A stretch of DNA of 64,000 bases from Myxococcales bacterium (GTDB taxonomy: Bacteria > Myxococcota > Myxococcia > Myxococcales > JAKAPL01), in contig JAJXUD010000001.1 of the NCBI GenBank assembly GCA_021783235.1, positions 1-64,000 of the forward strand, written 5' to 3'. The notes under the pieces are model-generated. The model was not told the origin of the DNA and did no database searches. It saw only the letters and a program-made list of their open reading frames with translations. Within the stretch, counting starts at the first letter, position 1. Each line of letters opens with the position of its first letter. A program made the translations under genes and the position numbers. Positions 2,295 to 59,245 of the stretch are shown piece after piece.

Positions 2295-2624
2295 CTACCG
2301 CTCGCTTCCGTCCCGCAGCAGCCGCCGCAGGGCGTGGCGCTGCTGCTCCCCGATGTCGAGGAAGCTGAGCCCAATCCGGGGCTTGCCCCGGAACGTCTCC
2401 GTCCGCTGCACCACCGCCGGCAGCCGCGCCGGAGCGCCGCCGAGCTCGAGCGCCACCACCACGAGGCCCGTGAGCTCAGCGAGCGGCTTGCGCAGCTCCA
2501 CCAGGGCTCCGCCCTCCGAGAGGTTCACCGCCACCGCCGCCACCACGTTCCGCTCCGAGAAGCAGCGGAGCTCCACGGGGGTGCGACGACCCGGATGCCG
2601 CTCGCTGGCCCGCCGGTTGTTCAT
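2295..2624 (-). CDS. PilZ domain protein
   Basis: This is a 109-residue single-domain protein. The basic N-terminus (NNRRASERHPGRRTPVEL) matches the RxxxR half of the c-di-GMP binding motif. NLSEGGALVEL matches the (D/N)xSxxG half. PilZ proteins bind cyclic di-GMP and commonly control motility or exopolysaccharide in myxobacteria. The open frame extends upstream, but the ATG at 2624 starts exactly at the domain, so it is preferred. The stop lies 1 nt past the end of the convergent amidinotransferase gene. Confidence 0.85.
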   Translation of the reverse strand: MNNRRASERHPGRRTPVELRCFSERNVVAAVAVNLSEGGALVELRKPLAELTGLVVVALELGGAPARLPAVVQRTETFRGKPRIGLSFLDIGEQQRHALRRLLRDGSER

Positions 2625-2658
2625 CCCCCCGGAGTGTGAGGGCCCGGGGGCGAGGCTG

Positions 2659-3504: not shown

Positions 3505-3524
3505 GATGAACCTCGATCCATCGC

Positions 3525-3820
3525 GGATGGATCGTTGTCCTCCCAGGATGGGTCGTCGTCCTCCCGGGATGGATCGTCATCCTCCCGGGATGGATCGTCG
3601 TCCTCCCAGGATGGATCGTCGTCCTCCCAGGATGGATCGTCGTCCTCCCAGGATGGATCGTCGTCCTCCCAGGATGGATCGTCGTCCTCCCAGGATGGAT
3701 CGTCGTCCTCCCAGGATGGATCGTCGTCCTCCCGGGATGGATCGTCGTCCTCCCAGGATGGATCGTCGTCCTCCCGGGATGGATCGTCGTCCTCCCAGGA
3801 TGGATCGTCGTCCATCGCGG
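3525..3820 (+). repeat. 21-bp tandem array, about 14 units (array 1)
   Basis: The unit is roughly GATGGATCGTCGTCCTCCCAG with a few point variants (CCCGG for CCCAG, TCATC for TCGTC). Because 21 is a multiple of 3, the array is open in most frames and would encode heptads such as DDDPSWE or GGRRSIL. It lies immediately 5' of the minus-strand FHA gene. There are no unique spacers, so it is not a CRISPR. A second array of the same period and with the same right-hand flank is at 49514-50010. Confidence 0.95.
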
Positions 3821-3840
3821 ATCGCGGATGGAACCGGATG

Positions 3841-3870
3841 GAACAGGTCAAGACATCCCTGACACTCGCA
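3841..3870 (+). repeat. 30-bp anchor beside array 1
   Basis: This segment (core ACATCCCTGACAC) matches 28 of 30 bases with 50011-50040, which sits at the equivalent position beside array 2. Both mismatches are single transitions/transversions (G/T at the twelfth base, T/C at the twenty-sixth). The rest of the intergenic DNA differs. It could be an insertion-sequence end or the conserved border of the array element; no transposase is nearby. Confidence 0.85.
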
Positions 3871-3875
3871 ACGGC

Positions 3876-3935
3876 GAAAGGGCATCTGACAGGCAGGCCG
3901 CGGAACGGGGAAAGGGGATCTCACAGGCAGGTCGC
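3876..3935 (+). repeat. Two-copy 26-bp direct repeat in gene-poor spacer
   Basis: GAAAGGGCATCTGACAGGC at 3876 recurs at 3910 as GAAAGGGGATCTCACAGGC, with the following bases also similar, giving a 34-bp period. It lies just beyond the anchor of array 1. The rest of 3936-4146 contains no convincing gene; an AT-rich stretch around 4085-4145 contrasts with the GC-rich surroundings. Confidence 0.7.
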
Positions 3936-4146
3936 TCGTGCCGGCGGACGCGCTCGCTGCCTCGGCCGCGCGCCGGGCAGAAGATGGGCGTGCCTCGTTG
4001 CGGTAGAGCCAGCCGCTCAGAGTGACAGGCGGGGTGGGGGCGGCACCCGTGTTGCGGTCGCCGATCTCATTGACAACGAATTGGGCAGCGAATATTTTTT
4101 TCGCGGAGGCTTTGTCTGAGCGCGAGCTTGGGCATTGCCTTTTTTC

Positions 4147-5037
4147 TTAGCTGCCGGTCGCTGCAAGGTCTTGCCGTGACCGCAGGTCGTCGATCACCTT
4201 GAAGCTCCAAACGTGGGAGGGCACTCCCGCCCTTTCTTGGGTCGCGCGAAACCGCAAGTCGCAAACAGCCTGAGCAAGATCAGCCAGTTCGGGACGTCGC
4301 TCGCGGACCATGCTCTTGACCTGGACGCCCCAGTTGATGATGTACGCCGTGAGATCTGCCACCTGGACGAGGGTCGTGAGATCGGAGTGCACGAACAACG
4401 GCTCCGGGATGATCTTGCTCGCGCGCAGCTTGCCGGTGGCCGTCTCTCGGAAGTAGCGGTGCATCTGGTTGACGAGGTTCTGGGAGCGCGACTTCTCCGT
4501 CTCGTCGAAAACCACGATGCCGTGGCCGCGGTCGGTTTCGTCCAGGAAGTAGTAGAACCGTTCGAAGAGGTAGGCGAAGTCTTTCCTGAGGAACCCTCCC
4601 TCGGTTGGCCGCGGAGCATCCCGGTCGATGATGCTCGCGAAAGCCTTGCAGCGAAACGCGGCGGCTTGCTCGAAGATCCGGGCGCAGAATCCCAGCTTTG
4701 CCTGCGCCAATGCTGCCAACTCCCTGCGCGTGACCGCTGCTCCAGCTCCCGCGGCCCCTTTCGCGAGGCAGCTCTTCGTGAGTTCCAGCCTCTCGGCGGC
4801 CGGAATCGGCTCGCACTGCGCGGCATGGCGAAAGACCTTCTTCTTGAGAAGCTTCTTCCCCTTCAGCTCGAGCTCGAACTCTTGCGAGATCCTCCGTCCG
4901 AAGTGGTCGTGCTCGGCCTGGTGGACCGATTGGATCAGGTTCCAGAGGTCCCGGTCCTCGACTGCCAAGCCGGCGAGGACCTCGTAGGGCGACTCCCGGT
5001 CGCCACCGCTCTCGTCGATGAAGAGGAGGTGCGCCAC
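4147..5037 (-). CDS. DUF3800 domain protein
   Basis: The 296-residue protein starts with FIDESGG (Asp8-Glu9-Ser10), the hallmark of DUF3800. It has the expected internal DRD and FDETEKS acidic segments and the C-terminal VQVADLTAYI motif. The family has an RNase H-like appearance and is often found in mobile or defence-rich regions; its function is unproven. Base composition is visibly less GC-rich than the neighbours, and the gene is isolated between a repeat-filled spacer and a divergent housekeeping-like cluster. Horizontal acquisition is likely. The start codon is GTG at 5037. Confidence 0.87.
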   Translation of the reverse strand: MAHLLFIDESGGDRESPYEVLAGLAVEDRDLWNLIQSVHQAEHDHFGRRISQEFELELKGKKLLKKKVFRHAAQCEPIPAAERLELTKSCLAKGAAGAGAAVTRRELAALAQAKLGFCARIFEQAAAFRCKAFASIIDRDAPRPTEGGFLRKDFAYLFERFYYFLDETDRGHGIVVFDETEKSRSQNLVNQMHRYFRETATGKLRASKIIPEPLFVHSDLTTLVQVADLTAYIINWGVQVKSMVRERRPELADLAQAVCDLRFRATQERAGVPSHVWSFKVIDDLRSRQDLAATGS

Positions 5038-5136
5038 GTCGCAAGGGTGCCAGAGAGGGCGTCGAGGAACAACGGCGCGGTCGACGGGGCCCGCTGTTGA
5101 ACGGCCCTGCGCGCGGTGCTAACGCTTCCGAAGGCC

Positions 5137-6195
5137 ATGCCCGCGCTTCCGTCGATGCGGCTGCTCCCCTTTCCGGCGCCCGCGCAGAGGGCGCCGAACG
5201 CGCTCCGCTACGAGGGGCGGCCCGGCCACGTCGAGAGCTGGTTCTGGCGGGCGAACGATCCCGACCGGCCGCGGGCGCTCTGGCTCAAGGTGACGATCCT
5301 GGCGCCGCTCTCGGGGCCCGCGCTGGCGGAGAGCTGGTTCGTCTGGTTCGACGGGGAGAAGCGGCGGCTGCTCGGCCACCGGACGACGGTGCCGTTCTCC
5401 GAGGCGAGCTTCGGTGCGGGCGCGGAGCCGCGCCTTCTGGCGGCGGGCTTCGACATCGAGACCTCGCCGATCGGCCGGGCGCGGGGCGCGCTGCGGGCGA
5501 GCTTCGGGGAGGCGGCCTTCGACCTCTCGGTCGCGCCGGAGCGGTCGCCCATCGCCGAGCCGCTCGCGCTGCTGCGCGGGAAGGCGCTTCGCGAGGGGCC
5601 GTTCCCCCGCTCGAAGCTCCTGACGCCGCTGCCGGCGGCGCGCCTCTCGGGCAGCGTGACGTTGCCGGACGGCCCCGTGGCGATCGACGGCTGGCCCGGG
5701 ATGCAGGGGCACAACTGGGGGCGCGAGCACGCCTTCGAGTACGCCTGGGGCCAGTGCCTCTTCCCCAGGGCGGGCGGCGCGCCGGAGGCGATGCTCGAGG
5801 GCTTCACCGGGCGCGTCTGTGTCGCCGGCCGACGGACGCCCTGGATGTCGGCGCTGGTGGTGCGGCGCGGCGAGGAGGAGCTCCGCTTCGATCGGCTCCT
5901 CGACTTCTGGCGGCAGCGGTCCGAGGTCGGCGGCGAGCGCTGGACGCTCGCGCTGCGCGGCCCCGACGGCGAGGCGCGGCTCCGGATGGAGGCCGCCGGC
6001 CGGCCGACGGCCTGCCTCGGCTACCGAAACCCGGACGGCCGGCTCTCGTACTGCTTCAACTCGAAGCTCGCCGAGGTCCGGCTGCAGCTCCAGCCGCGCC
6101 GGGGCGGGGCGTTCGAGCTCTACAGCGAGCACGGCGGCGCGCTGGAGCTGCTCCGACGGGAGCCCGGCCCCGCGGCTGGGATCGAGCCGATCTGA
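5137..6195 (+). CDS. CrtC/AttH-like lipocalin-fold protein
   Basis: The 352-residue protein contains G-WPGMQGHNWGREHAFEYAWGQ, resembling the conserved HNWG...W.WG region of hydroxyneurosporene synthase (CrtC) and AttH-type proteins, which hydrate or modify hydrophobic isoprenoid or steroid-like substrates. ATG 5137 is chosen; GTG 5116 and ATG 5155 are in-frame alternatives. The stop overlaps the next ATG (TGATG), so it forms an operon with the small protein and the GMC oxidoreductase. A joint role in oxidising and modifying a lipid such as a sterol or carotenoid is inferred from this context only. Confidence 0.65.
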   Translation: MPALPSMRLLPFPAPAQRAPNALRYEGRPGHVESWFWRANDPDRPRALWLKVTILAPLSGPALAESWFVWFDGEKRRLLGHRTTVPFSEASFGAGAEPRLLAAGFDIETSPIGRARGALRASFGEAAFDLSVAPERSPIAEPLALLRGKALREGPFPRSKLLTPLPAARLSGSVTLPDGPVAIDGWPGMQGHNWGREHAFEYAWGQCLFPRAGGAPEAMLEGFTGRVCVAGRRTPWMSALVVRRGEEELRFDRLLDFWRQRSEVGGERWTLALRGPDGEARLRMEAAGRPTACLGYRNPDGRLSYCFNSKLAEVRLQLQPRRGGAFELYSEHGGALELLRREPGPAAGIEPI

Positions 6196-6602
6196 TGGCG
6201 ATCGCCTTCGCCGAGACGATGCGCGGCTGGTTGCGGGCGCCGGAGGGCGAGCAGCCGATCTCCTTCGAGCTGCGGGCCTCGGGGGGGGCCGGAGGCCGCT
6301 TCGCGCTCGCGGGCCGCCTCTCCTTTCCGCCGTTCGCGCTGGACGCCCCGGCGCGCGGCGAGCTCGCGATCTCGCCGCGCCGGCTCGCCTACGCGCTCGC
6401 CTTCGCGGGGGACGACGGCAGGCGCTACCGGCTGCTGGCCGAGAAGCGGCCCTCGCTCCTCGCGCCGGTCCGCTCGATGACCTCGATGTGGGCGGTCGTC
6501 CGCGAGCTGGACGGCCCGGCGGTGGCCGAGGGCGAGATGCGCTTCGACCTGCGCGACCTGCCGGCCTTCCTCGCCTCGTGGCTGCCCCGGTTCGGCCGAT
6601 GA
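6195..6602 (+). CDS. Small GMC-oxidoreductase-associated protein
   Basis: The 135-residue protein begins IAFAETMRGWL and ends with a WAVVREL...LRDLPAFLASW segment. This resembles the TMxG-containing N-terminal beta-rich domain seen fused to some cholesterol-oxidase-like GMC proteins, here as a free-standing gene. It overlaps the previous stop (TGATG) and the next start (ATGA), so it is translationally coupled to both neighbours. No catalytic residues are recognised; it may act as a substrate-presenting or structural partner of the GMC enzyme. Confidence 0.6.
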   Translation: MAIAFAETMRGWLRAPEGEQPISFELRASGGAGGRFALAGRLSFPPFALDAPARGELAISPRRLAYALAFAGDDGRRYRLLAEKRPSLLAPVRSMTSMWAVVRELDGPAVAEGEMRFDLRDLPAFLASWLPRFGR

Positions 6603-44679: not shown

Positions 44680-47145
44680 ATGGACGGCTCGCTCACGGTC
44701 AACGGCCGGAAGGTGGAGCTTTCGCTCGACCGTCCGAGGAGTCTGCTCCACGTCCTGCGCGAGGAGCTCGGCCTCACGGGCCCCAAGTACGGCTGCGGCG
44801 AGGGGCAGTGCGGCGTCTGCACGGTCCTCGTCGACGGCCGCCCCGTGCAGGCCTGCGGCACCGAGCTTGCGGCCGTGGTCGGCCGCTCGATCCGGACCAT
44901 CGAGGGCTTCGCCACGGAGGGGCGCCTCTCCCCCCTGCAGCGGGCCTTCGCGGAGCTCGGCGCGTTTCAGTGCGGCTACTGCACCCCCGGCATGATCGCG
45001 GCGGCCGAGGCGCTGCTCGCCTCGGAGCCCAATCCGAGCGAGGGCCGCATCGCCGAGGCGCTCGAGGGGCACGTCTGCCGCTGCGGGGTCTACTCCCGGA
45101 TCGTCCGGGCCGTCCGGCGGGCGGTGGAGCTCTCCGACGCGCCGCCGGCCGCGGCCCAAGCTCCCGCGCCGGCGCCCGAGCTCGCCTCCGGCGGCGTCCC
45201 CTGGGACCTGCTCGAGCCCTCCGCGCGGAGCTACTTCGAGCGGCTCGGCGACGGCCTCCTCTCCGTGGAGGCCCCCGCGATGCGGGGCTGGCCGCCCGCC
45301 GGCGGCGCCTGGATCCACCTCGGGGCGGACGGCGTCGCCACCGCCTTCACCGGCAAGGTCGAGATGGGGCAGGGGGCCGCCACGGGGATGGCCCTCCTCG
45401 TCGCCGAGGAGCTGCGGCTGCCGCTCTCGGCCGTGCGCGTGGTCCACGGCGACACCGACCACTGCCCCTGGGACGTCGGCACCTTCGGCAGCATGTCCAT
45501 CGCCGTCGCGGGCCGCGACCTGCGCGCCGCGGCCGCCCGACTCCGCGAGCGGCTCGCGTCCCTCGGCGGCGAGCTCCGGGGCCGGCGCGAGCTCGTCTCC
45601 GCGGGGCCGGCGCCGCTCACGCCCGCCGCGGCCTGGCGGGTCGCGGGCCACGACGCGGCGCGCGCCTCGGCGCTGGACGTCGTCACCGGCGCGAAGCGCT
45701 ACCCGAGCGACCTGTCGCGGCCCGGGCTGCTGCACGGCGCCGTCCTCCGCCCGCCCGCCTACGGCGCCTCGCTCCGCTCGGTCGACGGCTCGCGGGCCCG
45801 CGTCCTCCCGGGCGTGACGCTGGTCGAGGAGGAGGGCTTCGTCGGCGTCGCCTGCGGAGAGCTCGGGGTGGCGCGGGAGGCCGTCCGGGCGATCCAGTCC
45901 GAATGGGAGCTCTCCCCGCAGCCGTCCGAGGGCGAGCTCGAGGAGTGGCTGCGCGCTCACCCGGTCGAGGCCGCGGGCTGGGAGCGGGCGGTTCACGAGG
46001 AGCGGGGCGATCCCGCGAAGGCGCTCGCGGCCGCGGAGGTCCGCCTCTCGGCCAGCTACCGGGCGGCCTACCTCGCCCACGTCCCCATCGAGCCCCGCGG
46101 CGCGCTGGCGGAGTGGGGCGGCGGGCGGCTGACCGTCTGGCTCGGCACGCAGACCCCCTTCGAGCTGCGCGAGACGCTCGCCGAGGCGCTCGCGATCGCC
46201 CAGGAGCGGATCCGCGTCGTCGCGGTCGACTTCGGCGACGGCTTCGGCGGCAAGCACGCGGACGACGTGGCGCTCGAGGCCGCCCGGCTCGCCCGCGCCA
46301 CCCAGCGGCCGGTCAAGGTCCTCTGGAGCCGCGAGGAGGAGTTCCGCTGGGGCCACTTCCGGCCCGCGGCCTTCATCGACGTCCGCAGCGGCGCGAATCG
46401 CGACGGGCGGATCGTCGCCTGGGACTTCCGCTGCGTGAACGGCGGTCCGTCGGCGGTCCGGCCGCCCTACGACTTCGCGCACCAGAGCGTCCACTTCCAG
46501 CCGGCGCTGGCGCCGCTCGCGCAGGGGCCCTACCGGGCGCTCGCCGCCACCACGAACAACTTCGCGCGCGAGTCGCACCTCGACGAGATCGCCCACGCGA
46601 TCGGCTTCGATCCGCTCGAGCTTCGGCTGCGCCAGCTCCGCGACGACCGCACGGCGGCGGTGCTGCGCGCGGCGGCGGAGCGGGCCGGCTGGAGCCGTCG
46701 GGAGGGGCGCCACCTGGGCCTCGCGGCGGGCGTCGAGAAGGGCGGCCGGGTGGCCACGGTGGCCGAGGTCGCCCTCGAAGCGGGGACGCCGCGCGTGCGC
46801 CGCATCGTGACCGCCTACGACTGCGGCGCCGTCGTCAACCCCGACGGCGTCCGGAGCCAGATCGAGGGGGCCACGACGATGGGGCTCGGCGGCGCGCTCT
46901 TCGAGGCCGTCCACTTCGAGCGGGGCCGACTCTCGAACCCGAAGCTCTCGCTCTACCGGCTGCCGCGCTTCTCGGACCTGCCGACCGTCGAGACCGTGCT
47001 CGTGAGCCGGCCGGACGATCCGCCGGCGGGCGCGGGGGAGGTGCCGCTCATCGCGCTCGCGCCGGCCATCGCGAACGCGATCTTCGCGGCGACGGGCGAG
47101 CGGCGGCGCGCGATGCCGCTCCTCGGCCCCCAGCCGGCCGGTTAG
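44680..47145 (+). CDS. Single-chain molybdenum hydroxylase (isoquinoline 1-oxidoreductase/aldehyde oxidase type)
   Basis: The 821-residue protein fuses the small iron-sulfur subunit (Cys39, 44, 47, 59 and Cys98, 101, 133, 135) to the molybdenum-binding large subunit. The latter carries KVEMGQGAATGMALLVAEEL and a C-terminal Glu in AGEVPLIALAPAIANAI at the active site. In relatives these are two separate genes. There is no FAD subunit, so an external acceptor such as a cytochrome is expected. The cofactor fits the molybdate transporter in the window. Overlaps the convergent GH76 gene by 4 nt. Confidence 0.88.
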   Translation: MDGSLTVNGRKVELSLDRPRSLLHVLREELGLTGPKYGCGEGQCGVCTVLVDGRPVQACGTELAAVVGRSIRTIEGFATEGRLSPLQRAFAELGAFQCGYCTPGMIAAAEALLASEPNPSEGRIAEALEGHVCRCGVYSRIVRAVRRAVELSDAPPAAAQAPAPAPELASGGVPWDLLEPSARSYFERLGDGLLSVEAPAMRGWPPAGGAWIHLGADGVATAFTGKVEMGQGAATGMALLVAEELRLPLSAVRVVHGDTDHCPWDVGTFGSMSIAVAGRDLRAAAARLRERLASLGGELRGRRELVSAGPAPLTPAAAWRVAGHDAARASALDVVTGAKRYPSDLSRPGLLHGAVLRPPAYGASLRSVDGSRARVLPGVTLVEEEGFVGVACGELGVAREAVRAIQSEWELSPQPSEGELEEWLRAHPVEAAGWERAVHEERGDPAKALAAAEVRLSASYRAAYLAHVPIEPRGALAEWGGGRLTVWLGTQTPFELRETLAEALAIAQERIRVVAVDFGDGFGGKHADDVALEAARLARATQRPVKVLWSREEEFRWGHFRPAAFIDVRSGANRDGRIVAWDFRCVNGGPSAVRPPYDFAHQSVHFQPALAPLAQGPYRALAATTNNFARESHLDEIAHAIGFDPLELRLRQLRDDRTAAVLRAAAERAGWSRREGRHLGLAAGVEKGGRVATVAEVALEAGTPRVRRIVTAYDCGAVVNPDGVRSQIEGATTMGLGGALFEAVHFERGRLSNPKLSLYRLPRFSDLPTVETVLVSRPDDPPAGAGEVPLIALAPAIANAIFAATGERRRAMPLLGPQPAG

Positions 47146-49388
47146 GGGACGTCGAAGCTGAAGACCGGTCCCGCCAGCTCTCCGCAGCCGGTGAGGGCGG
47201 TCACCTGCCAGCGGTGGCAGCCGGGGCCGGGCGGCGAGGAGGGCGTGCAGCTCGTCCCGGTGAGCCCGACGCAGATCGGCTGCCCGTCGAGCGTCACGTC
47301 GAAGGAGCTGCCCGGGGCCGAGGCGCTCCACGAGAGCGCGCTCGGCGCGCCGACGCTGCCGTCGGCAGGCGAGGGGGAGCCGACCGACGCGGGGGAGGGG
47401 GCGATGGCGAGCTCCCGCTCCGGGGAGAAGCTGGCGCCGCAGCCGTTCTGGGCCTCGACGTACCAGCGGTGCAGGCCGGGCGCGAGCGGGGGCAGCGCAC
47501 AGCTCGTCCCGCCGGTCGTGCAGGCGACCGCGCCGTCCACGACGAGCGCGTAGCTCGTCGCGCCCGTGGCCGCGGTCCAGCTCGGCGCGGGCGGCGTCCC
47601 GCAGCAGCTCGCCTGGTTCCAGGGGGCCGTCGGCGCGGGGGAGCCTGGGAGGTTGCCGGCGGCGCAGGGGACGGGCTCGACCACGACGACGTCCAGGTTC
47701 ACGTAGCCGCCGTTGCCCGCGGCCTCGCCGATCTCGAAGTCGGTGGGCCGCTGGGCGAGCTGAAGATCCTCGTGGACGTTCGACCAGGTCGACCAGGAGC
47801 CCGTCCCGGGGAAGGCGAGCGAGGAGTCGACGACCTTGCCGTCGACCGAGAGCGTCCGCGTCGCGGCCCCGGCGCCGGCCGCGTAGGCGAAGGTCAGCCG
47901 CCAGCGGCCGGCGGTCGGGACGTCCCAGTGGAGCAGCACCGACTGCCCCTGGCTGCCCCAGCCGGCGACGTAGCCGAAGCCTTCGTGGCCCGGCGCCGAG
48001 GCCTCGAGCCCGACCCCGTTCAGCTTGCCCTCCTCCGCCTGGAGGTGGTTCGCGGGGTAGCCGCGGCCCGGGTACTGTCCGCCGCGGGCCGCCGACAGGT
48101 CGAGCGCCATGAGCGCCGAGGTGACCGCGCGGAGGTCGACCGGCGTGGTCGGGGAGGGGGCGGGGCCCGCCCAGTCGGACGCGAAGACGTCGCCGGGCCC
48201 GCGCGCATCGTTCCAGACGGCCAGCGGGGAGTCGACGAGGACCGGAAGCGTCGCGAGGGTGGGGTCCACCGCGGAGAGCTCGTTCAGGTAGCGGTAGCCG
48301 ATGCCCTTGAACTGCGCGCAGTCGCCGCCGCAGGTCGATCCGTCGAAGAGGATGGGGCCGTCGCCGCTGCTCTCGGTCTCGCTCTGCTGCATGAACGCGG
48401 CGAAGGCCCTGGCGTCGTCCAGGTAGCGGGCCTCGCCCGTCGCCTCGTGCAGCTCGAGCGCGGCGCCCACCATCAGCCCCTGGTCGTAGCTGTACTTCCA
48501 CCAGAGCCGCTGCCCGGTCTTCGCGACGACGTGGTCGGCCACCTGACCCTGCGCGTCCACGTAGGTCGAGCGCCAGAAGTCGTAGACCCTCCGCGCGAAG
48601 GAGAGGTAGGCCGAGTTGCCGCTGCGGGCCGCGAGCCGCACGCCGGCGATCACCGGGCCGGCGTTCGAGGCGGTGGCCTTCTGCGTGTGCGCCTGGTCCC
48701 ACCAGATGCCGCCCGGGCTCGCGCCGCAGCAGGTCGTGTCCCAGCCGCCCTCGATGCTCGCGTAGATGCCCTCGGCGCTGCCGAGGAAGGTCGCGTCGCC
48801 GCCGAAGTCGTAGGCGCGCAGCAGGGCCAGCGTCATCCAGCTCTCGTCGTCGTAGTAGCTGCTCGAGAAGCCGCTCGAGTAGCTCGTCTTCTCGGCAGCG
48901 GCCGCGTCGTAGAAGGTGTCGAGCGTCAGCCCGAAGCCGCCCGTGCGGAAGGCCGCGTCGAGGAGCGCGTCGAAGCCCTGCGCGAAGGTCCAGTAGCCCG
49001 TCGCCGTCGTCGAGGCGCCGCCCTGGGAGGCCCAGCTCGCGGCGAGGTAGCCGAGCGGCTGGCTCCAGTAGTGGACGAGAAAGTCGCCGACCGCCTGGTC
49101 CGCGTCCGCGTGGGCGGCGGCGTCCTGGCTCTGCGGCGCGCAGCTCGAGCCGAGCGGAGCGCCGCCCGAGCCGCCGAGCGGCGCGCAGGCGCCACCGCTG
49201 GTCGAGCCGCCGCTCGACCCGCCCGAGGTCGATCCGCCGTTCGTCGTGCCGGAGCTCGTGGCGGCGGAGCCGCTGCCCCCGGCCGACGTGGAGCCGCCGC
49301 CGCTCGTGGCGGGGCTCGAGCCCTCTCCCGGCGAGCAGCCGCCGCCGAGGAGGAGCCCGAGGGCGAGAAGCGACGGGGCGAGTCTCAT
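47142..49388 (-). CDS. GH76-like glycoside hydrolase lipoprotein with carbohydrate-binding and Fn-type domains
   Basis: The 748-residue lipoprotein (LLLGGGC, Cys18) has a Gly/Ser/Thr-rich linker (about 22-70). A catalytic domain follows with the GH76 Asp pair in SSYYDDESWMTLALLRAY (Asp180-Asp181), characteristic of alpha-1,6-mannanases. A CBM6/35-like sandwich (LTFAYAAGAGAATRTLSVDGKVV) and two Fn3-like domains form the C-terminal part. It probably degrades fungal or bacterial mannan. A truncated copy of its 5' end lies at 52606-52800. Confidence 0.85.
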   Translation of the reverse strand: MRLAPSLLALGLLLGGGCSPGEGSSPATSGGGSTSAGGSGSAATSSGTTNGGSTSGGSSGGSTSGGACAPLGGSGGAPLGSSCAPQSQDAAAHADADQAVGDFLVHYWSQPLGYLAASWASQGGASTTATGYWTFAQGFDALLDAAFRTGGFGLTLDTFYDAAAAEKTSYSSGFSSSYYDDESWMTLALLRAYDFGGDATFLGSAEGIYASIEGGWDTTCCGASPGGIWWDQAHTQKATASNAGPVIAGVRLAARSGNSAYLSFARRVYDFWRSTYVDAQGQVADHVVAKTGQRLWWKYSYDQGLMVGAALELHEATGEARYLDDARAFAAFMQQSETESSGDGPILFDGSTCGGDCAQFKGIGYRYLNELSAVDPTLATLPVLVDSPLAVWNDARGPGDVFASDWAGPAPSPTTPVDLRAVTSALMALDLSAARGGQYPGRGYPANHLQAEEGKLNGVGLEASAPGHEGFGYVAGWGSQGQSVLLHWDVPTAGRWRLTFAYAAGAGAATRTLSVDGKVVDSSLAFPGTGSWSTWSNVHEDLQLAQRPTDFEIGEAAGNGGYVNLDVVVVEPVPCAAGNLPGSPAPTAPWNQASCCGTPPAPSWTAATGATSYALVVDGAVACTTGGTSCALPPLAPGLHRWYVEAQNGCGASFSPERELAIAPSPASVGSPSPADGSVGAPSALSWSASAPGSSFDVTLDGQPICVGLTGTSCTPSSPPGPGCHRWQVTALTGCGELAGPVFSFDVP

Positions 49389-49535
49389 GCGGCCAGTCTA
49401 CCGCTGCTCGGCCCGAGTTCGTCTCCGCCGGAGCGCGCAGCCGCTCGGGCGAAGGAGGGTCGATCGCCGGCCAGCGAGGCTCGACGAGCTGCGAGGGAGG
49501 CTCGATCGCGACCGATCCCTCGGGGATCACCCGCG
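49249..49535 (+). repeat. Source copy of a 280-bp segmental duplication
   Basis: This stretch covers the first about 45 codons of the GH76 gene, its upstream region and the start of array 2. It is closely matched by 52666-52935. Both copies contain the same CAT, CGGCCAGTCTACCGCTGCTC and GAGGCTCGACGAGCTGCGAG segments. Confidence 0.85.
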
Positions 49536-50010
49536 ATCCCTCGGGGACGATGGCCGATCCCTCGGGGATCACCCGCGATCCCTCGGGGACGATGGCCGAT
49601 CCCTCGGGGATCGCCCGGGATCCCTCGGGGACGATGGCCGATCCCCCGGGGATCGCCCGTGATCCCTCGGGGACGATGACCGATCCCTCGGGGATCGCCC
49701 GTGATCCCTCTGGGATGATGGCCGATCCCCCGGGGATCGCCCGCGATCCCTCGGGGACGATGGCCGATCCCTCGGGGATCGGCCGTGATCCCTCGGGGAC
49801 GATGGCCGATCCCTCGGGGATCGCCCGTGATCCCTCGGGGATGATGGCCGATCCCCCGGGGATTGCCCGTGATCCCTCGGGGATGATGGCCGATCCCTCG
49901 GGGATGATGGCCGATCCCTCGGGGATCGGCCGTGATCCCTCGGGGACGATGGCCGATCCCCCGGGGATCGCCCGTGATCCCCCGGGGATGATGGCCGATC
50001 CCCCGGGGAG
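49514..50010 (+). repeat. 21-bp tandem array, about 24 units (array 2)
   Basis: Units alternate between GATCCCTCGGGGATCGCCCG- and GATCCCTCGGGGACGATGGC-type forms, giving a 42-bp higher-order pattern. Each unit carries a CTCGGGG or CCCGGGG palindrome. It occupies the divergent intergenic region between the GH76 gene and the Cys-rich DUF1566 gene. All plus frames read as heptads such as ADPSGIA/RDPSGTM. No unique spacers are present. Confidence 0.95.
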
Positions 50011-50040
50011 GAACAGGTCAATACATCCCTGACACCCGCA
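50011..50040 (+). repeat. 30-bp anchor beside array 2
   Basis: Identical in 28 of 30 bases to 3841-3870 and placed directly after the last array unit, as in array 1. On the minus strand both anchors could encode CxCQGC(L/I)DLF ahead of the heptads. Confidence 0.85.
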
Positions 50041-50124
50041 CCACTCCGAGGTCAGGCGAGCGATTGCTCGACAGGGGGTTGACGCCTCTTCCTCCGGCTG
50101 TTGGACTACTCCCGGGAGGTCCTC

Positions 50125-51972
50125 ATGCTCGGTCGTTCGTTGTCCCGCTCGATCTTCGCGGCGATGGTCCCTTTTCTGCTCTCTGCCTGTCCAGGCACGA
50201 CGGGCAAGGTCGGCGGTGACGGCGGTGCCATCCAGGACGGCGGCGGTGTCTCCGGCGACGGCGGTGCCTGCGCGGTTCTTGGCGGCTCCTGCGCGAGCGG
50301 CCCCTGCTGCGCTGGGCTCCAGTGCCAGGCTGGCGCCTGTACATCCCCCGCCGACGGCGGCTGCGCCGAGTCCTGCGCCTTCGGCGAGAGCTGCCAGAAG
50401 GGGGCCTGCCGCTGCGATCCGGCGAGCTGCACCGGGGGCCACTCGTGCAACGGCGCCGACCGCTGCGTCCAGGGGCAGTGCGTCCAGGGCGGCCAGGCCT
50501 GCGCCAGCTTCTCCGACTGCTGCAGCGGCGTCTGCGCGAACCAGCTCTGCGACGCCTGCGCCCCAAAGGGGACGGCCTGCAGCGGCTCTTCGAACTGCTG
50601 CGTGGGCCTCTTCTGCTACGATGGCGCCTGCACCGGCGGCTGTCAGGACGACGGCCAGAGCTGCAGCCTCGCCGCCGACTGCTGCTCCAACATCTGCAAG
50701 GCCGGGAGTTGCGTCGCCTGCGGCGCCGCCCAGGCCCCCTGCGGGAGTAATGCCGATTGCTGCATCGGTCTCGCCTGCAGCAATGGCTCGTGTGCCGCCG
50801 CCGCCGATGGCGGGACGCCGGACGCCGGCCAGAGCCTCGACGGCGGCCAGTGCTTCATGGGCGGCCACTCCTGCCTCGCCTTCTCCGACTGCTGCAGCGG
50901 CGTCTGCGCGAACCAGATCTGCGATGCCTGCGCCGCCTCGGGTGCCACCTGCGCGAGCGGCGCCGACTGCTGCGTCGGGCTGAACTGCTACCAGGGCGCC
51001 TGCGCCTCCTGCCAGCTCGATGCCACGAGCTGCACGCTCGCGAGCCAGTGCTGCTCGAACATCTGCCGGAGCGGGGGCTGCGTCGCCTGCGCCGCGCTCG
51101 GCGCCGCGTGTAGCGTCGGCGCCGACTGCTGCTCGGGGAGCTGCCAGGGCGGCGTCTGCGCGTGCCCCAACGGCGGTGCCCTGTGCAGCAGCGGCTGTGC
51201 GGACACCCAGACCGACCCAGCCAACTGCGGCGGCTGTGGGAAGGCTTGCCCGCAGGGCGCCTCCTGCCAGGGAGGCGCTTGCGCGTGCCCGCAGGCCGGA
51301 CAGGTCGCCTGCGGGTCCGTCTGCACGGACACCCAGACGGATGCGAGCAACTGCGGCAAGTGCGGGCTGGCTTGCGTGAACGGAGGCGTCTGCCAATCTG
51401 GCGCCTGCAACTGCACCGCCGCGGGAATGACCTACTGCTCCGCCGGGTGCACGAACGTGCAAGACGACCCGAACAATTGCAGCGGCTGCAACATCGCCTG
51501 TGCCAGCTACGAATCCTGCGGTTCGGGCCAGTGCTTGACCCAATGGGCGAGCTGGCCGATGCCGAACTCGGCGAGTACCGGATTGCCGAACCCCTCGAGC
51601 TACAACACCGCAACGCCTGGAGTCGTGATCGACAACGTGACGGGCCTGATGTGGCAGCAGCCGCTCGGCGACCCGAGCGGCACCAGCGCGTGGAGTGCGG
51701 CGGCGAGCTACTGCGCCTCTCTCTCGCTCGCGGGCTACACGGGCTGGCGGCTGCCCACGGAGATCGAGCTGACCTCACTGGTGGACTTCAATGTGGCACA
51801 ACCAGGTCCGACGATTGATGCGACGGCGTTTCCGGGGACGCCTCACACTAGGTTCTGGTCGTCCTCGCCGCTGGCGGGCATTCCGTCCTATGCGTGGTTC
51901 GTGAACTTCTACGACGGCGACGCCGACAGCGACGGCGTGGCGGTGTCGTTTTACGTCCGGTGTGTGCGTTGA
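50125..51972 (+). CDS. Cys-rich lipoprotein with C-terminal DUF1566 (Lcl) domain
   Basis: The 615-residue protein has a lipobox (FLLSAC, Cys22). About 450 residues of Cys-rich modules follow (repeats of CCSGVCANQ.CDAC, CC.GLxC, NCGGCGKAC). The last 115 residues form a DUF1566 domain (GLMWQQPLGD, WRLPTEIEL, FWSSSPLAG, ending VRCVR), a C-type-lectin-like fold. It is probably a surface adhesin. ATG 50125 follows GGGAGG. Resembles the B12-operon lipoprotein in its NCGGCG modules. Confidence 0.82.
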   Translation: MLGRSLSRSIFAAMVPFLLSACPGTTGKVGGDGGAIQDGGGVSGDGGACAVLGGSCASGPCCAGLQCQAGACTSPADGGCAESCAFGESCQKGACRCDPASCTGGHSCNGADRCVQGQCVQGGQACASFSDCCSGVCANQLCDACAPKGTACSGSSNCCVGLFCYDGACTGGCQDDGQSCSLAADCCSNICKAGSCVACGAAQAPCGSNADCCIGLACSNGSCAAAADGGTPDAGQSLDGGQCFMGGHSCLAFSDCCSGVCANQICDACAASGATCASGADCCVGLNCYQGACASCQLDATSCTLASQCCSNICRSGGCVACAALGAACSVGADCCSGSCQGGVCACPNGGALCSSGCADTQTDPANCGGCGKACPQGASCQGGACACPQAGQVACGSVCTDTQTDASNCGKCGLACVNGGVCQSGACNCTAAGMTYCSAGCTNVQDDPNNCSGCNIACASYESCGSGQCLTQWASWPMPNSASTGLPNPSSYNTATPGVVIDNVTGLMWQQPLGDPSGTSAWSAAASYCASLSLAGYTGWRLPTEIELTSLVDFNVAQPGPTIDATAFPGTPHTRFWSSSPLAGIPSYAWFVNFYDGDADSDGVAVSFYVRCVR

Positions 51973-52113
51973 GGACTGGGCCACTCTGACACCTCGTCCC
52001 TTTGACCTCGGGTGAGCGGCATGGCGAGGCGGCGGAGGGATCGCTCGAGGAGTTCCGCGGGTTCGGCGGGGGACGAGCCCCCGCCCAACGTCGTTCATGA
52101 AGGAGCGAATGCC

Positions 52114-52581
52114 ATGAAGAGCCACGTCGGTCGCAGCCTCTCTTGCACCCTCGGTGTTGCCGCCCTCGTCTTGGTTGCCCTGCCTGCCGGCGCGGGAGCG
52201 CCGCCGGGGCAGTACACGATCCCGGGCGATGGGACGGTCCACGACACGAAGACCGGGCTCATCTGGCAGCAGGCGCTCGGGGACAACCCAGGCGGGCAGA
52301 GCTGGAGCGCCGCGGCGAACTATTGCGGCTCGCTCACCCTCGCGGCTCTGTCCTGGCGGGTTCCGAGCGTCAAGGAGCTGAAGACGCTGGTGGATTTCAC
52401 GGTAGCGTCACCGGGACCGGCGATCGATGCGACGGCCTTTCCGAACACGCCCGCGACTTACTTCTGGTCGTCCTCGCCACTGGCGGGCGATCCGTCCCAC
52501 GCGTGGTACGTGAACTTCGTCGACGGCCTCACCAACTACAGCAGCGTGGGCTTTACTTCCCGCGTCCGTTGTGTGCGTTGA
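52114..52581 (+). CDS. Secreted single-domain DUF1566 protein
   Basis: The 155-residue protein has a signal peptide (LGVAALVLVALPAGAGA) and one DUF1566 domain. The domain is closely similar to the C-terminus of the preceding gene (GLIWQQALGD, FWSSSPLAGDPSHAWYVNF, VRCVR). ATG 52114 follows AAGGAG. It likely arose by tandem duplication of the last domain of 50125-51972. Confidence 0.85.
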   Translation: MKSHVGRSLSCTLGVAALVLVALPAGAGAPPGQYTIPGDGTVHDTKTGLIWQQALGDNPGGQSWSAAANYCGSLTLAALSWRVPSVKELKTLVDFTVASPGPAIDATAFPNTPATYFWSSSPLAGDPSHAWYVNFVDGLTNYSSVGFTSRVRCVR

Positions 52582-52605
52582 GGACGGGGCCCTTTTGACG
52601 ATTCG

Positions 52606-52800
52606 TCACTTCGACATCTCGTCCCGCGAAGGGGCATCGAACCGCTCTCCGCTCGGAAGACCGGAGCTCGTGGCCTCGGCCCCGCTGCACCCGGCCGACG
52701 TGGAGCCGCCGCCGCTCCTGGCGGGGCTCGAGCCCGCTCCCGCCGAGCCGCCGTCGCCGAAGAGGAGCCCCACGGCGAGAAGCGACGGGGCGAGCCTCAT
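52606..52800 (-). pseudogene. Truncated 5' copy of the GH76-like gene
   Basis: The 64-codon reading (MRLAPSLLAVGLLFGDGGS...) matches the first about 45 residues of the protein at 47142-49388. The lipobox Cys is lost (GGGC became DGGS), and the rest of the gene is missing. The similarity continues through the upstream non-coding DNA up to 52935. It is a non-functional duplicate. Confidence 0.8.
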
Positions 52801-52935
52801 GCGGCCAGTCTACCGCTGCTCGGCCCGAGTTCGTCTCTGCCCGAGCGCGCCAGCCGCTCGGGCGAAGGAGGGTCGACGCCGGCCAGCGAGGCTCGACGAG
52901 CTGCGAGGGGGCTCGATCGCGACCGATTCCCCGGG
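52666..52935 (+). repeat. Partial copy of the 49249-49535 segment
   Basis: Holds the pseudogene 5' end and its upstream region. Similarity falls off in a residual two-unit 21-bp array at about 52925-52975 (GATTCCCCGGGGATCGCCC), the short counterpart of array 2. The remaining 52936-53116 shows nothing further beyond this. Confidence 0.8.
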
Positions 52936-53116
52936 GATCGCCCCGCACCTCCCCCGGGGAATGACGACCGATCGACGACCTTGCGAATATTCGGAGGCGC
53001 GGGCGGGGGGCTGAGACCGGCCCTTCCTCCACTCGCGCCCTCGTCGATGCCTCCATGGGTGAATTGAGTAGCGGTGGTTGCCTGCCTGGCCGCTTACTGG
53101 CATCATCCTCGGGTCC

Positions 53117-54379
53117 ATGGCCTCTGTTCGCGAGCTTCTCGAATGCTTGGGGCGCGATGGCCTGGTCAGGCTCATGCGAGAGCGCGGATTGCCCCCAACG
53201 CGGGAAAATGATGACCGCCGCAGCTGCCTGGCGCGCTCGTTTCGTGGGGACGTAAGCGGGTTCATCTCGGAGCTGACCCGAGAGGAACTCGTCTCGATTT
53301 TCCGGAGTTCGACCTTCGAGGTCCGGGGGGACGAGGCCTACCTTTCGAATCCCTCGAAGTACCGCCTGGACGAGCTGCGAGCGTTTGCGCTCAATGCCTT
53401 TGCCGGCTTAGACGTTCGGACCCCAGGCGAGTTCTGCTCCGTTCCCACTCCGAGCGAGGACGAACTTGAACTGCAGGTTGGCGAGCAAGAGGAATGCGTC
53501 AGCGACCTCGACATTGGCTCTCTCGGCCGGGTCAGCGAAGAATGGTCGAGACCTAGGCTCATTTCGCGGCTTCTGCGACACATGGGGAGGAAGGTTCCTT
53601 CTCGGTTGCGAACCGTGCGTTTCCACGAGCTTCTGGCTGACCTCGCGGCAAGAGGAATCGAGGCTTGCCTTTCGGACGATCCCGAGGATTCCCCGCTCGG
53701 TGACGGTACCGAGTCTCCAGGGATTTCCGCCAAGCTTCGTTTGCGTCTTCGTCTTCCCAAGGCATCGAACTCGAGAGCCCTGGCTGACCGGGGGATCGGC
53801 CCACGCGGACCGGCGATCGTCATCGATGGCGCGGAGCCCCCGCTCGTTCAGTCTTCCCATAGGCCGAGCGACTACGAGTTGGCTGTCCTGCGCCTGAAGT
53901 TCTTGACTGCCATTCCAAGCACCCGGCGCTCCGCCACGCCGCAGTGGCCGAGCGCATTTCTCGACGCTGCCACCCGCGGGCTTCAGCTCCGTCTCGGTGA
54001 GCCGGGGCTCCTTAGAGCGATCTCTGCGAGCGTCAGCATAGGCAATCACAGCCCTTACGATTCCATCCAAGAACTCGTTCGCGCCCTGAGCGAGCGGGAG
54101 TGGGACGAGCTCCTGGAGGATCTTCAAGCCCTCAATCCGTCCCAACCCGGTGTGGTGGCCGCCATCGCCCAGCAGGTCAGGGCGATTCTCACGAGTCAAC
54201 GCGCTTCGAGTTCGGAGGCGCCTCACATGCCGCCGGAAGACCTTCGCGTTTCACTGGCCGCGCCCGCGGAGCCACTCGTCGCGTCAGGGAAGCCCTCCGT
54301 CGCAGTCGAGCCACCTTCACCCTCCAAGACGAACGTTCGTGACTTGGGTTCTCTCTCCGGCATGTTCGGCGACGAGTAG
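53117..54379 (+). CDS. Unknown protein partnered with BrxL
   Basis: The 420-residue protein has three similar helical modules near the N-terminus, each with LxRxxLxxLxxxxG...(R)..EL. They lie at about 3-45, 55-105 and 140-185, and look SAP/HeH-like, hinting at DNA or protein binding. The central region is basic and the C-terminus acidic with SGMFGDE. No catalytic motif is recognised. Only 5 nt separate it from brxL, so it is the obvious partner. ATG 53117 is preferred over 53078. Its base composition is visibly less GC-rich than the surrounding genome. Confidence 0.7.
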   Translation: MASVRELLECLGRDGLVRLMRERGLPPTRENDDRRSCLARSFRGDVSGFISELTREELVSIFRSSTFEVRGDEAYLSNPSKYRLDELRAFALNAFAGLDVRTPGEFCSVPTPSEDELELQVGEQEECVSDLDIGSLGRVSEEWSRPRLISRLLRHMGRKVPSRLRTVRFHELLADLAARGIEACLSDDPEDSPLGDGTESPGISAKLRLRLRLPKASNSRALADRGIGPRGPAIVIDGAEPPLVQSSHRPSDYELAVLRLKFLTAIPSTRRSATPQWPSAFLDAATRGLQLRLGEPGLLRAISASVSIGNHSPYDSIQELVRALSEREWDELLEDLQALNPSQPGVVAAIAQQVRAILTSQRASSSEAPHMPPEDLRVSLAAPAEPLVASGKPSVAVEPPSPSKTNVRDLGSLSGMFGDE

Positions 54380-54384
54380 GGACG

Positions 54385-56424
54385 ATGAACCAAGAGCTTC
54401 GAAACAAGATCGAGCACGTATTCGACAAGTTGGTGGTGGATAAACGAGAAGCGCTCAAGGCGGGCTTCGAGCTGATGCCTCGCTTCGTGACGGAGTTCCT
54501 TCTCGCCCAAGCCAAGACTTCGAATGCGGGCATGGAGTTCGACGAGGTCCGCCGCCGGATCGCCCGCTACACGGTCGACGCCGATCGGAAGAATGCGTTC
54601 GTCTCCGAATTAATGATGAAGGGAGAAGCGTCGCTGATCGCTCTGCTGGATGTCGAGCCGGACCTCGCGCACGGGGAGCACATCGGACGGATCGCGCAAC
54701 TCGACGGCCAGCCCATTTGGGTTCCAAATGCGATCGTCGAGGAATACAAGGAACTACTCTATGGGGGCCTGTGGGGGAGCGCCAAACTCGTCATCGACCG
54801 GGCCGCCGAACCTCGCCGTGTCGCCGTCCAGGAGTTCAGGCCCTACCAGCTCACTAGACCAGACATGGATGCCTTTCGTCGCGCGCGCGATGAATTTTCG
54901 CTTGAAGAGTGGACGGATCTTCTCATTACGAGCGCGGGATATCGCCCGGAAGCATTCCCGACCTTCCGCGGGAAACTCTTGGTCCTCTCCCGTCTGACCC
55001 CGTTGACTCAGCCCAACCTAAACGTCGTGGAGTTGGGCCCACGAGGGACGGGGAAGAGCTACCTCCTTAGGAATCTCAGCTCCCGCGTTTACCTCCTTTC
55101 CGGAGCGAGGGCGAGCCCGGCGACGCTGCTTTACGACCTCAACAAGAAAAGGCTTGGAATCATCGGCACAAAGAAGGTTGTCGTCTTCGACGAGGTCAGC
55201 CACACCGCCTTCCCCGATCTGGCTTTGGTCGCCGCCCTCAAGGACTTCATGGAGTCCGGGAACATCGCTCGAGGGGGGCGGTCGTTCGTCGCCGACTCGA
55301 GTTTGGTGTTCACGGGTAATCTGGAACTCGATGGCGAGGGCCGGTTGCCGAGCAAGCAGTACACGCACTATTTCGAAGCCCTTCCCAGGGCTCTCTGCGA
55401 CGTGGCGATCGGCGATCGAATCCACGCATTCATCCCTGGCTGGGAGATCCCGAAAATCTCGGACGAGGTGCTCGCTGATGGCGTGGGATTGCTCTCCGAC
55501 TACTTCGGAGAGGTCCTCGGCGAGCTTCGGCGCGACCAGACGTTCCTTGACTTTCTCCAACAGAAGAAGCGCTTGGTCAACGCCACGCTTCGCGACCAGA
55601 CGGCCGTCATGCGAACGGCGGCTGGCCTGCTTCGCATGCTGTACCCCAACGGAAAGATTGGGGAAGAGGGCCTCAAGCATGTGCTTCCGGTTGCCACCGA
55701 GTTGCGCCAGCGAGTCCACCGTCAGCTCGAACGCATGGCCCCCGGTGAGTACAAGCCGAAGATCCTCTATTTCGAAGGCATCGACGTTCACTCTCCACCG
55801 GACTTGGGCACGCGTTTCGAGCTTGAGCCTCAGGATGTCCTCGCGAACGAGGTTCCGCAGGTTGGCAAGATCACCATCCTCCTCGTCGGCGGCAAAGGCG
55901 GCGGGGGCGTCGGGTTCGTGGAGTGCGCCCACAATCCGGGCACCGGTCGGCCACGTATTACCGGGCTTCACGGAGACGCACTGGCGCACTCCGTCGAGGC
56001 GGCTTACGAGGCGCTCCTTTCGCTTTCAGGGAACCTGGGGGTCTCGGTCGCCGACTTGCGAGCCAAGAAGTTCGCAGTTCACCTCGTGAACATTTCTGAG
56101 CCCAAGGATGGCCCGAGCGCCGGGCTGGCAATAGCCCTTGCGATGCTTTCCGCGGCAACCAAGCGACCGGTCCGCCCGAACGTCGCTGTGACGGGGGAAC
56201 TCTCGGTTCAGGGCAACGTCAATGCCGTCGGTGGCATTGCGGAGAAGCTCACGGCGGCGGCCCGTCACGGGCGCCGGTTGGTCCTGATTCCCGCCGAGAA
56301 TGCCTCGGAACTTGGGCGGTTGCCAGAACTCGGACTCCAGCTGGACATTCACCCAGTTCGGGAACTTCGAGAGGCGGTCGAACTCGTCCTGGCTGAATCC
56401 CCGCAGGCGGCGACTTCGGCGTAA
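54385..56424 (+). CDS. brxL: BrxL, Lon-like AAA+ protein of BREX defence
   Basis: The 679-residue protein has Walker A GPRGTGKS (218-225), Walker B VVVFDE (265-270) and sensor FTGNL. The C-terminal Lon-type domain has catalytic Ser578 (KDGPSAGL) and Lys621 (GIAEKL). Length and domain order fit BrxL, the factor that binds DNA and is needed for phage resistance in type I BREX. No pglX, pglZ, brxC or brxA/B is in the window, so this is an orphan or a distinct two-gene system. The base composition resembles its upstream partner. Confidence 0.92.
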   Translation: MNQELRNKIEHVFDKLVVDKREALKAGFELMPRFVTEFLLAQAKTSNAGMEFDEVRRRIARYTVDADRKNAFVSELMMKGEASLIALLDVEPDLAHGEHIGRIAQLDGQPIWVPNAIVEEYKELLYGGLWGSAKLVIDRAAEPRRVAVQEFRPYQLTRPDMDAFRRARDEFSLEEWTDLLITSAGYRPEAFPTFRGKLLVLSRLTPLTQPNLNVVELGPRGTGKSYLLRNLSSRVYLLSGARASPATLLYDLNKKRLGIIGTKKVVVFDEVSHTAFPDLALVAALKDFMESGNIARGGRSFVADSSLVFTGNLELDGEGRLPSKQYTHYFEALPRALCDVAIGDRIHAFIPGWEIPKISDEVLADGVGLLSDYFGEVLGELRRDQTFLDFLQQKKRLVNATLRDQTAVMRTAAGLLRMLYPNGKIGEEGLKHVLPVATELRQRVHRQLERMAPGEYKPKILYFEGIDVHSPPDLGTRFELEPQDVLANEVPQVGKITILLVGGKGGGGVGFVECAHNPGTGRPRITGLHGDALAHSVEAAYEALLSLSGNLGVSVADLRAKKFAVHLVNISEPKDGPSAGLAIALAMLSAATKRPVRPNVAVTGELSVQGNVNAVGGIAEKLTAAARHGRRLVLIPAENASELGRLPELGLQLDIHPVRELREAVELVLAESPQAATSA

Positions 56425-56516: not shown

Positions 56517-56560
56517 GAGGGCGGCGGCATCGTCAAGGCGCTGCGGCTCCCGGGCGGCGG
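56517..56560 (+). repeat. Exact 44-bp duplicate of an internal aspS segment
   Basis: The 44 bases GAGGGCGGCGGCATCGTCAA... are identical to aspS 58427-58470, and the match stops sharply at both ends. It lies in the non-coding gap after brxL, 1.9 kb upstream of the functional copy and in the same direction. The rest of 56425-56672 contains no recognised gene. Confidence 0.9.
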
Positions 56561-57608: not shown

Positions 57609-59245
57609 CGCAGGTGGTCTTCGAGCCGGACGTCTCGCCCGAGGCCCACGCGCTCGCGGGCGAGCTGCGCCACGAGTACGTCGTCGGCATCCGCGGCAAG
57701 GTCCACGCGCGCGGCGCGCAGGTGAACCCGAAGATGAAGACGGGCGAGGTCGAGGTGAAGGCCACGGAGCTCGAGATCTTCAACCGGGCCGAGACGCCGC
57801 CCTTCCCGATGGACGACGAGATCGACACGGCCGAGGAGAAGCGGCTCGCCCATCGCTACCTCGACCTGCGGCGCGCCCCGCTCCAGCGGGTCCTGATGAC
57901 GCGCCACCGGATGAACCAGGCGACGCGCGGCTACCTGAGCTCGCGCGGCTTCCTCGAGCTCGAGACGCCGTTCATGATCCGCAGCACGCCGGGCGGGGCG
58001 CGCAACTTCCTCGTCCCTTCGCGGCTGAACCCGGGCAAGTTCTACGGCCTCGCGGAGAGCCCGCAGCTCTTCAAGCAGCTCTACATGGTGTCGGGCTTCG
58101 ACCGCTACTTCCAGATCGTCAAGTGCTTCCGCGACGAGGATCTGCGCGGCGACCGGCAGCCGGAGTTCACGCAGATCGACCTCGAGATGAGCTTCGTCGC
58201 CGAGCCCGACGTCTTCGAGATCATCGAGGGGCTGATGGCGGAGCTCTTCCGCGCGGCCAAGGGCAAGGAGCTCACGACCCCGTTCCCGCGGATGCCTTAC
58301 GAGGAGGCGATGGACCGCTACGGCGTCGACAAGCCCGACACCCGCTTCGGCCTCGAGCTCTGCGAGGTGACCGACGTCGTCCGCGCCGAGAACGGCGGCG
58401 GCGTGCCGCTCTTCGCGCAGGCGCTGGAGGGCGGCGGCATCGTCAAGGCGCTGCGGCTCCCGGGCGGCGGCGGCCTCTCGCGCACCGAGCTCGACGGCCT
58501 CGAGGAGGTGGCGAAGAGCTTCGGCGCCCGCGGCCTCGCGCGCGCCAAGGTGGGGCCGGGCGGCGAGTGGACCCAGTCGCCGCTCGCGAAGAGCGCGACG
58601 CCCGGGCTGCGCCAGGGCATCCACGAGAAGACGCAGGCGAAGGAAGGGGACGTTCTCCTCTTCCAGTTCGGCAAGGCCAAGGTGGTCAACGGCGTGCTCG
58701 GGCAGCTTCGCGGCTCGCTCGGGAAGCGGCTGAAGCTCATCCCCGAGGGGCGCGACGACCTGCTCTGGGTGGTCGACTTCCCGCTCTTCGAGTACTCGGA
58801 CGAGCAGAAGGCCCACGTGGCGGCGCACCACCCGTTCACCTCGCCGCGGCCCGAGGACGTCGAGTTCATCCTCTCGGACCCGGGCCGCTGCAGGGCGCGG
58901 GCGTACGACCTCGTGCTCAACGGCAACGAGGTGGGCGGCGGCAGCATTCGAATCCACGACTCGAGCGTGCAGGCGAAGGTGTTCAAGGCGCTCGGAATCT
59001 CGGACGAGGAGGCGAACAGCAAGTTCGGCTTCTTGCTCGAGGCGCTCCGTTACGGCGCGCCGCCGCACGGCGGCCTCGCGCTCGGTATGGACCGGCTCAC
59101 CATGCTGCTCGCGGGCGGCGAGTCGCTGCGCGACGTCATCCCGTTCCCGAAGACGCAGAAGGGGACGGATCTCATGACGGGCGCGCCGGGCGACGTCACC
59201 GAGGCGCAGCTGCGCGAGCTGCACGTGCGGAGCGTGCTGCCTTGA
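57449..59245 (+). CDS. aspS: Aspartyl-tRNA synthetase
   Basis: The 598-residue class II synthetase has the N-terminal anticodon-binding OB fold, motif 2 in FRDEDLRGDRQPEFTQID and motif 3 in GGLALGMDRL. A GAD insertion follows the catalytic core, as in bacterial AspRS. It charges tRNA-Asp; whether it also charges tRNA-Asn cannot be told. The stop overlaps the next TTG start by 3 nt. Confidence 0.95.
   Translation: MPPRFIFDIKRTHSCGALTKANVGESVVLFGWVATRRDHGGCVFIDLRDREGLTQVVFEPDVSPEAHALAGELRHEYVVGIRGKVHARGAQVNPKMKTGEVEVKATELEIFNRAETPPFPMDDEIDTAEEKRLAHRYLDLRRAPLQRVLMTRHRMNQATRGYLSSRGFLELETPFMIRSTPGGARNFLVPSRLNPGKFYGLAESPQLFKQLYMVSGFDRYFQIVKCFRDEDLRGDRQPEFTQIDLEMSFVAEPDVFEIIEGLMAELFRAAKGKELTTPFPRMPYEEAMDRYGVDKPDTRFGLELCEVTDVVRAENGGGVPLFAQALEGGGIVKALRLPGGGGLSRTELDGLEEVAKSFGARGLARAKVGPGGEWTQSPLAKSATPGLRQGIHEKTQAKEGDVLLFQFGKAKVVNGVLGQLRGSLGKRLKLIPEGRDDLLWVVDFPLFEYSDEQKAHVAAHHPFTSPRPEDVEFILSDPGRCRARAYDLVLNGNEVGGGSIRIHDSSVQAKVFKALGISDEEANSKFGFLLEALRYGAPPHGGLALGMDRLTMLLAGGESLRDVIPFPKTQKGTDLMTGAPGDVTEAQLRELHVRSVLP

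Follow-up and report, generated by a model that had tools for sequence, protein, structure and literature searches.

A GH76 gene front and its decayed partial copy bracket a retroelement-type target gene pair beside a BrxL island in a Myxococcales bacterium

The window analysed here is a 64,000-nucleotide stretch of a contig from a Myxococcales bacterium. Its region of interest opens with a complete GH76 gene, whose upstream DNA is followed by a short leader, a tandem array and a conserved array tail. Beyond the tail lie two genes with Lcl_C/DUF1566 domains, Lcl1 and Lcl2, then a partial copy of the front of the GH76 gene and, directly abutting this copy, a foreign island made of a 433-aa gene and the phage-defence-like brxL, with an exact fragment of aspS at its right edge. 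The features are collected in Table 1, together with the retroelement on contig 14 of the same genome to which the Lcl genes are related.

Table 1. Positions of the features discussed. Positions are those of the window unless a contig or locus is named.
Feature	Position	Strand	Basis
GH76 5' part, duplicated (whole gene 47142-49388)	49249..49388	-	Pfam GH76 and CBM35; alignment to 52661-52800
GH76 upstream DNA, duplicated at 52801-52851	49389..49439	-	3/51 differences
Array leader, degenerate 21-bp units, 3 copies in genome	49440..49511	.	97% to 52853-52922, 95% to C6:181302-181237
Tandem array, 42-bp unit (2 x 21 bp), ~12 copies	49512..50009	.	TRF; second full array on C6
Conserved array tail, GGAACAGGTCAATACATCCCTGACAC...	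50010..50040	+	5 genomic copies, all adjoining a 21/42-bp array
Lcl1, Cys-rich, C-terminal Lcl_C/DUF1566; homolog of DGR target VP1 (contig 14)	50101..51972	+	Pfam; 81% nt to L118:3256-3760; VR differences
Junction; avd, TR and RT missing relative to contig-14 DGR	51973..52130	+	VP1-side homology stops at 52028, VP2-side resumes at 52131
Lcl2, short Lcl_C/DUF1566 gene; homolog of DGR target VP2; ATG probably 52114	52012..52581	+	Pfam; 75% aa to VP2; VR test
Partial copy, decayed: start of GH76 (lipobox Cys lost) with its upstream DNA, the leader and ~2 array units	52661..52973	-	Alignment, frame reading
Motif in common with right flank of other array element (C6:180674-180644)	52989..53019	+	Score reached by 0/1000 shuffles and 0/3000 random stretches
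First gene of foreign island, 433 aa	53078..54379	+	GC3 0.707
brxL (BrxL_N, BrxL_ATPase, Lon_C)	54385..56424	+	Domain matches; GC3 0.749
Exact 44-bp copy of aspS interior (58427-58470), right edge of BrxL island	56517..56560	+	100% over 44 bp
Contig-14 DGR	L118 (G000:C14:1-8021)		VP1 831-3704, Avd-like 3741-4151, TR ~4306-4425, RT 4408-6030, VP2 6027-6503

In a local alignment, positions 49249-49559 match 52661-52973 on the same strand throughout, at about 90% identity with gaps and with a score of 457, compared to 28 for the best of 50 shuffles. The initial 190 bp align without gaps and are 91.6% identical, and the starts of the two repeats lie 3412 bp (~3.4 kb) apart. The sequence-only reading had proposed a copied block of 270-280 bp at 52666-52935; the alignment confirms the duplication and corrects its borders, the copy beginning at 52661 and extending about 40 bp further to the right, for a total of 313 bp. 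It contains the GH76 start codon and the first ~46 codons, ~50 bp of upstream DNA, the ~72-bp leader and about two degenerate 21-bp units. With respect to the GH76 locus, 14 of 140 bases are changed in the coding portion (6, 4 and 4 at codon positions 1, 2 and 3), 3 of 51 in the upstream DNA and ~3% in the leader. The translation of the copy reads MRLAPSLLAVGLLFGDGG, and the frame is truncated and dead, ending after 64 codons; both the lipobox Cys (LLLGGGC replaced by LLFGDGG) and the rest of the gene are missing, as had been noticed from the sequence. Because the indels and deletions of the 52661 block are private to it when the third leader of the genome, on C6, is brought into the comparison, and the leader at 49440 retains the state common with C6, the block is the derived, decayed copy. 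A separately binned MAG holds a contig (JAJYIO010000223.1) identical to window 49815-55214 except for 1 mismatch, with 0 gaps, and the junction of array, copy and brxL is therefore not a chimera of a single assembly, although both MAGs may come from one sample. No Rfam match to a structured RNA was found at the GH76-front block.

The leader, the array and the tail occur together a second time in full at C6:181313-180715, without GH76 DNA and with 89% identity over the whole element. They constitute a dispersed element, belonging to a family of arrays with a common tail. The 26-bp tail GGAACAGGTCAATACATCCCTGACAC follows five arrays (window 3525-3813, window 49512-50009, C6:180.8 kb, C101 and C120) whose units are mostly unlike each other, and its core was found nowhere else in the genome when up to 2 mismatches were allowed. 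Arrays of 21- or 42-bp period with mostly unlike units are seen at window 3525-3900, L036:8716-9313, L119:9860-10399 and L120:8618-9418, and share the tail GGAACAGGTCAA(T/G)ACATCCCTGACAC; further 21-bp arrays, at L122:9533-9920, L124:329-711 and L128:12892-13145, are devoid of it. No copy of leader, array or tail was found in the relatives. To the right of the partial copy, the motif at 52989-53019 suggests that the stub formerly extended into a full element and then lost its array.

Short dispersed intergenic repeats are also a property of the REP/REPIN sequences associated with RAYT (PMC3116915, PMC3733652), and the tail contains a GTCA...TGAC motif; unlike these, the arrays described here are 21-bp tandem repeats in few copies, have no linked transposase in this genome and show no general palindrome. 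Indeed, dyad symmetry clearly above shuffles was observed for 1 of 9 array units, and a general palindromic nature of the 21-bp units was rejected. In relative G001, a RAYT (Y1_Tnp-like) gene has an array of 41 copies of a 21-bp unit immediately at its 3' end (L086:4167-5780). Despite this case, a role of RAYT as the general driver of arrays is unsupported: the one RAYT found in the window's genome has no array beside it, and among 30 RAYT-type loci in and around the order, one adjoins a period-21/22 array of more than 3 copies.

Contig 14 of the same genome carries a complete DGR in which VP1 and VP2 both have Lcl_C domains and the TR is rich in AAC codons; its Avd-like protein matches Avd models weakly, under their cut-offs. 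Lcl1 and Lcl2 are colinear with VP1 and VP2 of this element (order VP1-avd-TR-RT-VP2), the middle being gone: window 51527-52028 corresponds to the end of VP1 plus 20 bases past the start of the avd frame as drawn, at 81% identity, window 52131-52605 matches VP2, also at 81%, and everything between the VP1- and VP2-matching parts is missing. RT, template repeat and accessory gene are absent between Lcl1 and Lcl2 and were found on contig 14 only. The ends of Lcl1 and Lcl2 are related to each other (~75%), and each is nearer to its counterpart, Lcl1 to VP1 and Lcl2 to VP2.

DUF1566 is a usual target domain of DGRs (PMC6642488), and remote variable proteins of the DGR kind have been described in cyanobacteria (PMC7517822). 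Compared to the template, the VR of Lcl1 differs at 19/31 A versus 14/88 non-A positions (p=4e-6) and that of Lcl2 at 17/31 A versus 7/88 non-A positions (p=2e-7); the VRs of VP1 and VP2 show the same concentration on adenines (p=4e-8 and 2e-10), with 2 non-A differences. The window genes thus have the property of remote DGR targets, a 3'-end VR with adenine-specific differences from a template located elsewhere in the genome. Because they carry more non-A changes (14 and 7 of 88, versus 2), they have not been rewritten recently from the contig-14 template, Lcl1 especially. The locus resembles known DGRs whose targets are of the DUF1566/C-type-lectin kind and which have remote variable proteins (PMC6642488, PMC7517822) in its Lcl_C targets, its adenine-biased 3' VR and the sequence shared past the stop codon, and differs from them in consisting of two targets only, without avd, TR or RT. 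On contig 14, a RAYT-like gene and IS66-like genes come after the DGR. A remnant of an Lcl2-like gene is also present at L161:166-324 (G000:C32), where its start survives together with a stretch similar to its 3' flank, and the intervening space encodes, as judged by eye, an apparent HEPN/nucleotidyltransferase toxin-antitoxin pair.

The BrxL pair has a foreign composition, its GC3 (0.707 and 0.749) being lower than that of the Lcl genes (0.82-0.88) and of the native genes (0.97, taken from GH76, aspS and the molybdenum-enzyme gene at 44680). Full-length BrxL is present in about 9 of 145 genomes of the order, including that of the window, and is absent from both other genomes of the family. 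With this GC3 and a patchy distribution, the pair is clearly foreign and forms an island of its own. BrxL resembles its counterpart in BREX (PMC10164562) by its BrxL_N, BrxL AAA+ and Lon_C domains and scores above the cut-off of the NCBIfam BrxL equivalog TIGR02688; unlike in BREX, its sole partner is the unrecognised 433-aa gene, and neither PglZ, BrxC, a methyltransferase nor another BREX gene is present in the island or adjacent to it. The 433-aa gene has no match in Pfam, NCBIfam or PADLOC, and no convincing homolog of it was found beside eight distant BrxL genes. The aspS-interior copy lies 93 bp beyond the stop codon of brxL.

Lcl1 and Lcl2 lie between direct repeats of native DNA (49249-49559 and 52661-52973): along the GH76 strand, the truncated GH76 front with its upstream DNA and leader is followed by Lcl2-Lcl1 and the array and then by the complete GH76 gene. 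The sequence-only reading had suggested that the accessory genes entered through a duplication or recombination event at the copy, which lies, as it stated, immediately upstream of the BrxL module. The analysis supports an event of this kind; the genes that it brackets, however, are the Lcl/DUF1566 pair, whereas the BrxL pair sits outside the right-hand repeat. We favour, with about even confidence, an old insertion-duplication bracketing a retroelement-type target pair, of which 52661-52973 would be the right-hand direct repeat, since decayed. DNA with foreign genes and a fragment of the GH76 front would have joined the chromosome through one homologous crossover, a tandem duplication or a template switch being equivalent routes, and the insert would be the target-gene half of a DGR that lost avd, the template repeat and the reverse transcriptase. 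The copy, being unneeded, would then have decayed, with shrinkage of the array, loss of the signal-peptide Cys and accumulation of indels, and the BrxL pair would have come separately, outside the repeat. The layout resembles Campbell-type single-crossover insertion-duplications and merodiploids, such as those of transformed Streptococcus pneumoniae (PMC3784515), in that direct native repeats bracket extra DNA with one truncated copy and one intact gene; it differs in that the GH76-front repeats are old and diverged, and the donor and the mechanism are inferred. The 8-10% divergence between the repeats marks the junction as old, and its original ends may no longer be present. A single crossover and a tandem duplication followed by later insertion of the Lcl genes between the copies are not told apart by any of these observations.

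The event is reconstructed from a single genome because the pre-insertion state is seen in no relative. The comparison within the family comprised two other genomes, among which G001 alone has a readable aspS locus. There, recJ precedes aspS, the GH76 gene is on another contig without such an array beside it and the synteny is unrelated (recJ is on contig 104 in the window's genome); G002 gave no strong aspS match. A census of non-tandem partial duplications of at least 30 bp on one 247-kb contig, from which arrays and internal gene repeats were left out, yielded three: the GH76-front block, the aspS fragment and a kinase front at C6:91606-91802. The latter, which is the only other comparable gene-front duplication on the contig, belongs to a complete gene beginning near 92615 and also matches a paralog at 222.7 kb. 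Its locus is laid out like the GH76 locus: the truncated front comes first, then an inserted lipoprotein gene of lower GC (0.648), then the complete gene. That the layout is seen twice speaks for insertion-duplication without proving it. The truncated kinase-front copy lacks 222 bp internally, the deletion lying at a short shared sequence (L121:7606-9033; G000:C6:91606-93033).

That the duplication marks the entry of the BrxL module, joined to the GH76-front copy, is unlikely. The copy abuts the island and the other edge has the exact 44-bp aspS copy, so that both edges carry fragments of neighbouring native genes, and local duplications of this kind are rare on the 247-kb contig. However, BrxL lies outside the repeats and not between them, the left copy has diverged by 8-10% while the aspS copy is identical, so that the two fragments need not share one age, and no target-site or other direct repeat was found at the two island edges. 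Nothing ties the arrival of BrxL to the duplication; the best reading is that it was independent, BrxL being a later or at least separate neighbour, and the aspS copy and the 52989-53019 motif could mean, against this reading, that templated repair here was also part of the arrival.

Mobility of the array element, a second insertion or an array-to-array recombination dragging along the adjacent GH76 front, would account for the third occurrence of leader and array without GH76 DNA, for the five tails each adjoining an array and for the 31-bp motif common to the right flanks of the stub and of the other element. We nevertheless regard it as doubtful, as no transposase accompanies the elements in this genome, the association of RAYT-type loci with such arrays is limited to the 1 in 30 given above plus the G001 case, and elements carrying off the front of a host gene are not otherwise seen here. 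A plain tandem duplication from the GH76 front to the Lcl region with later deletion, involving no acquisition, is quite improbable: the 3412-bp unit between the repeat starts and the relatedness of the Lcl1 and Lcl2 ends would agree with it, but Lcl1 and Lcl2 are not each other's closest relatives.

With regard to insertion-duplication, the three cases on one contig (the fronts of GH76 and of the kinase gene at C6:91.6 kb, and the 44-bp aspS fragment) raise the broader idea that the lineage gains foreign genes by recurrent duplicative joining that leaves a truncated native-gene copy at the edge of the insert, with 21-bp arrays as recombination points; we consider this generalisation very unlikely at present. 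The duplication itself is an ordinary scar of a past DNA insertion, with some unusual company. The genes that it brackets are retroelement-type targets and not BrxL, and the arrays beside it form a dispersed family with a common tail. On one contig, a truncated native-gene copy is found at the edge of a foreign insert in at least two cases, an arrangement that could be counted genome-wide.
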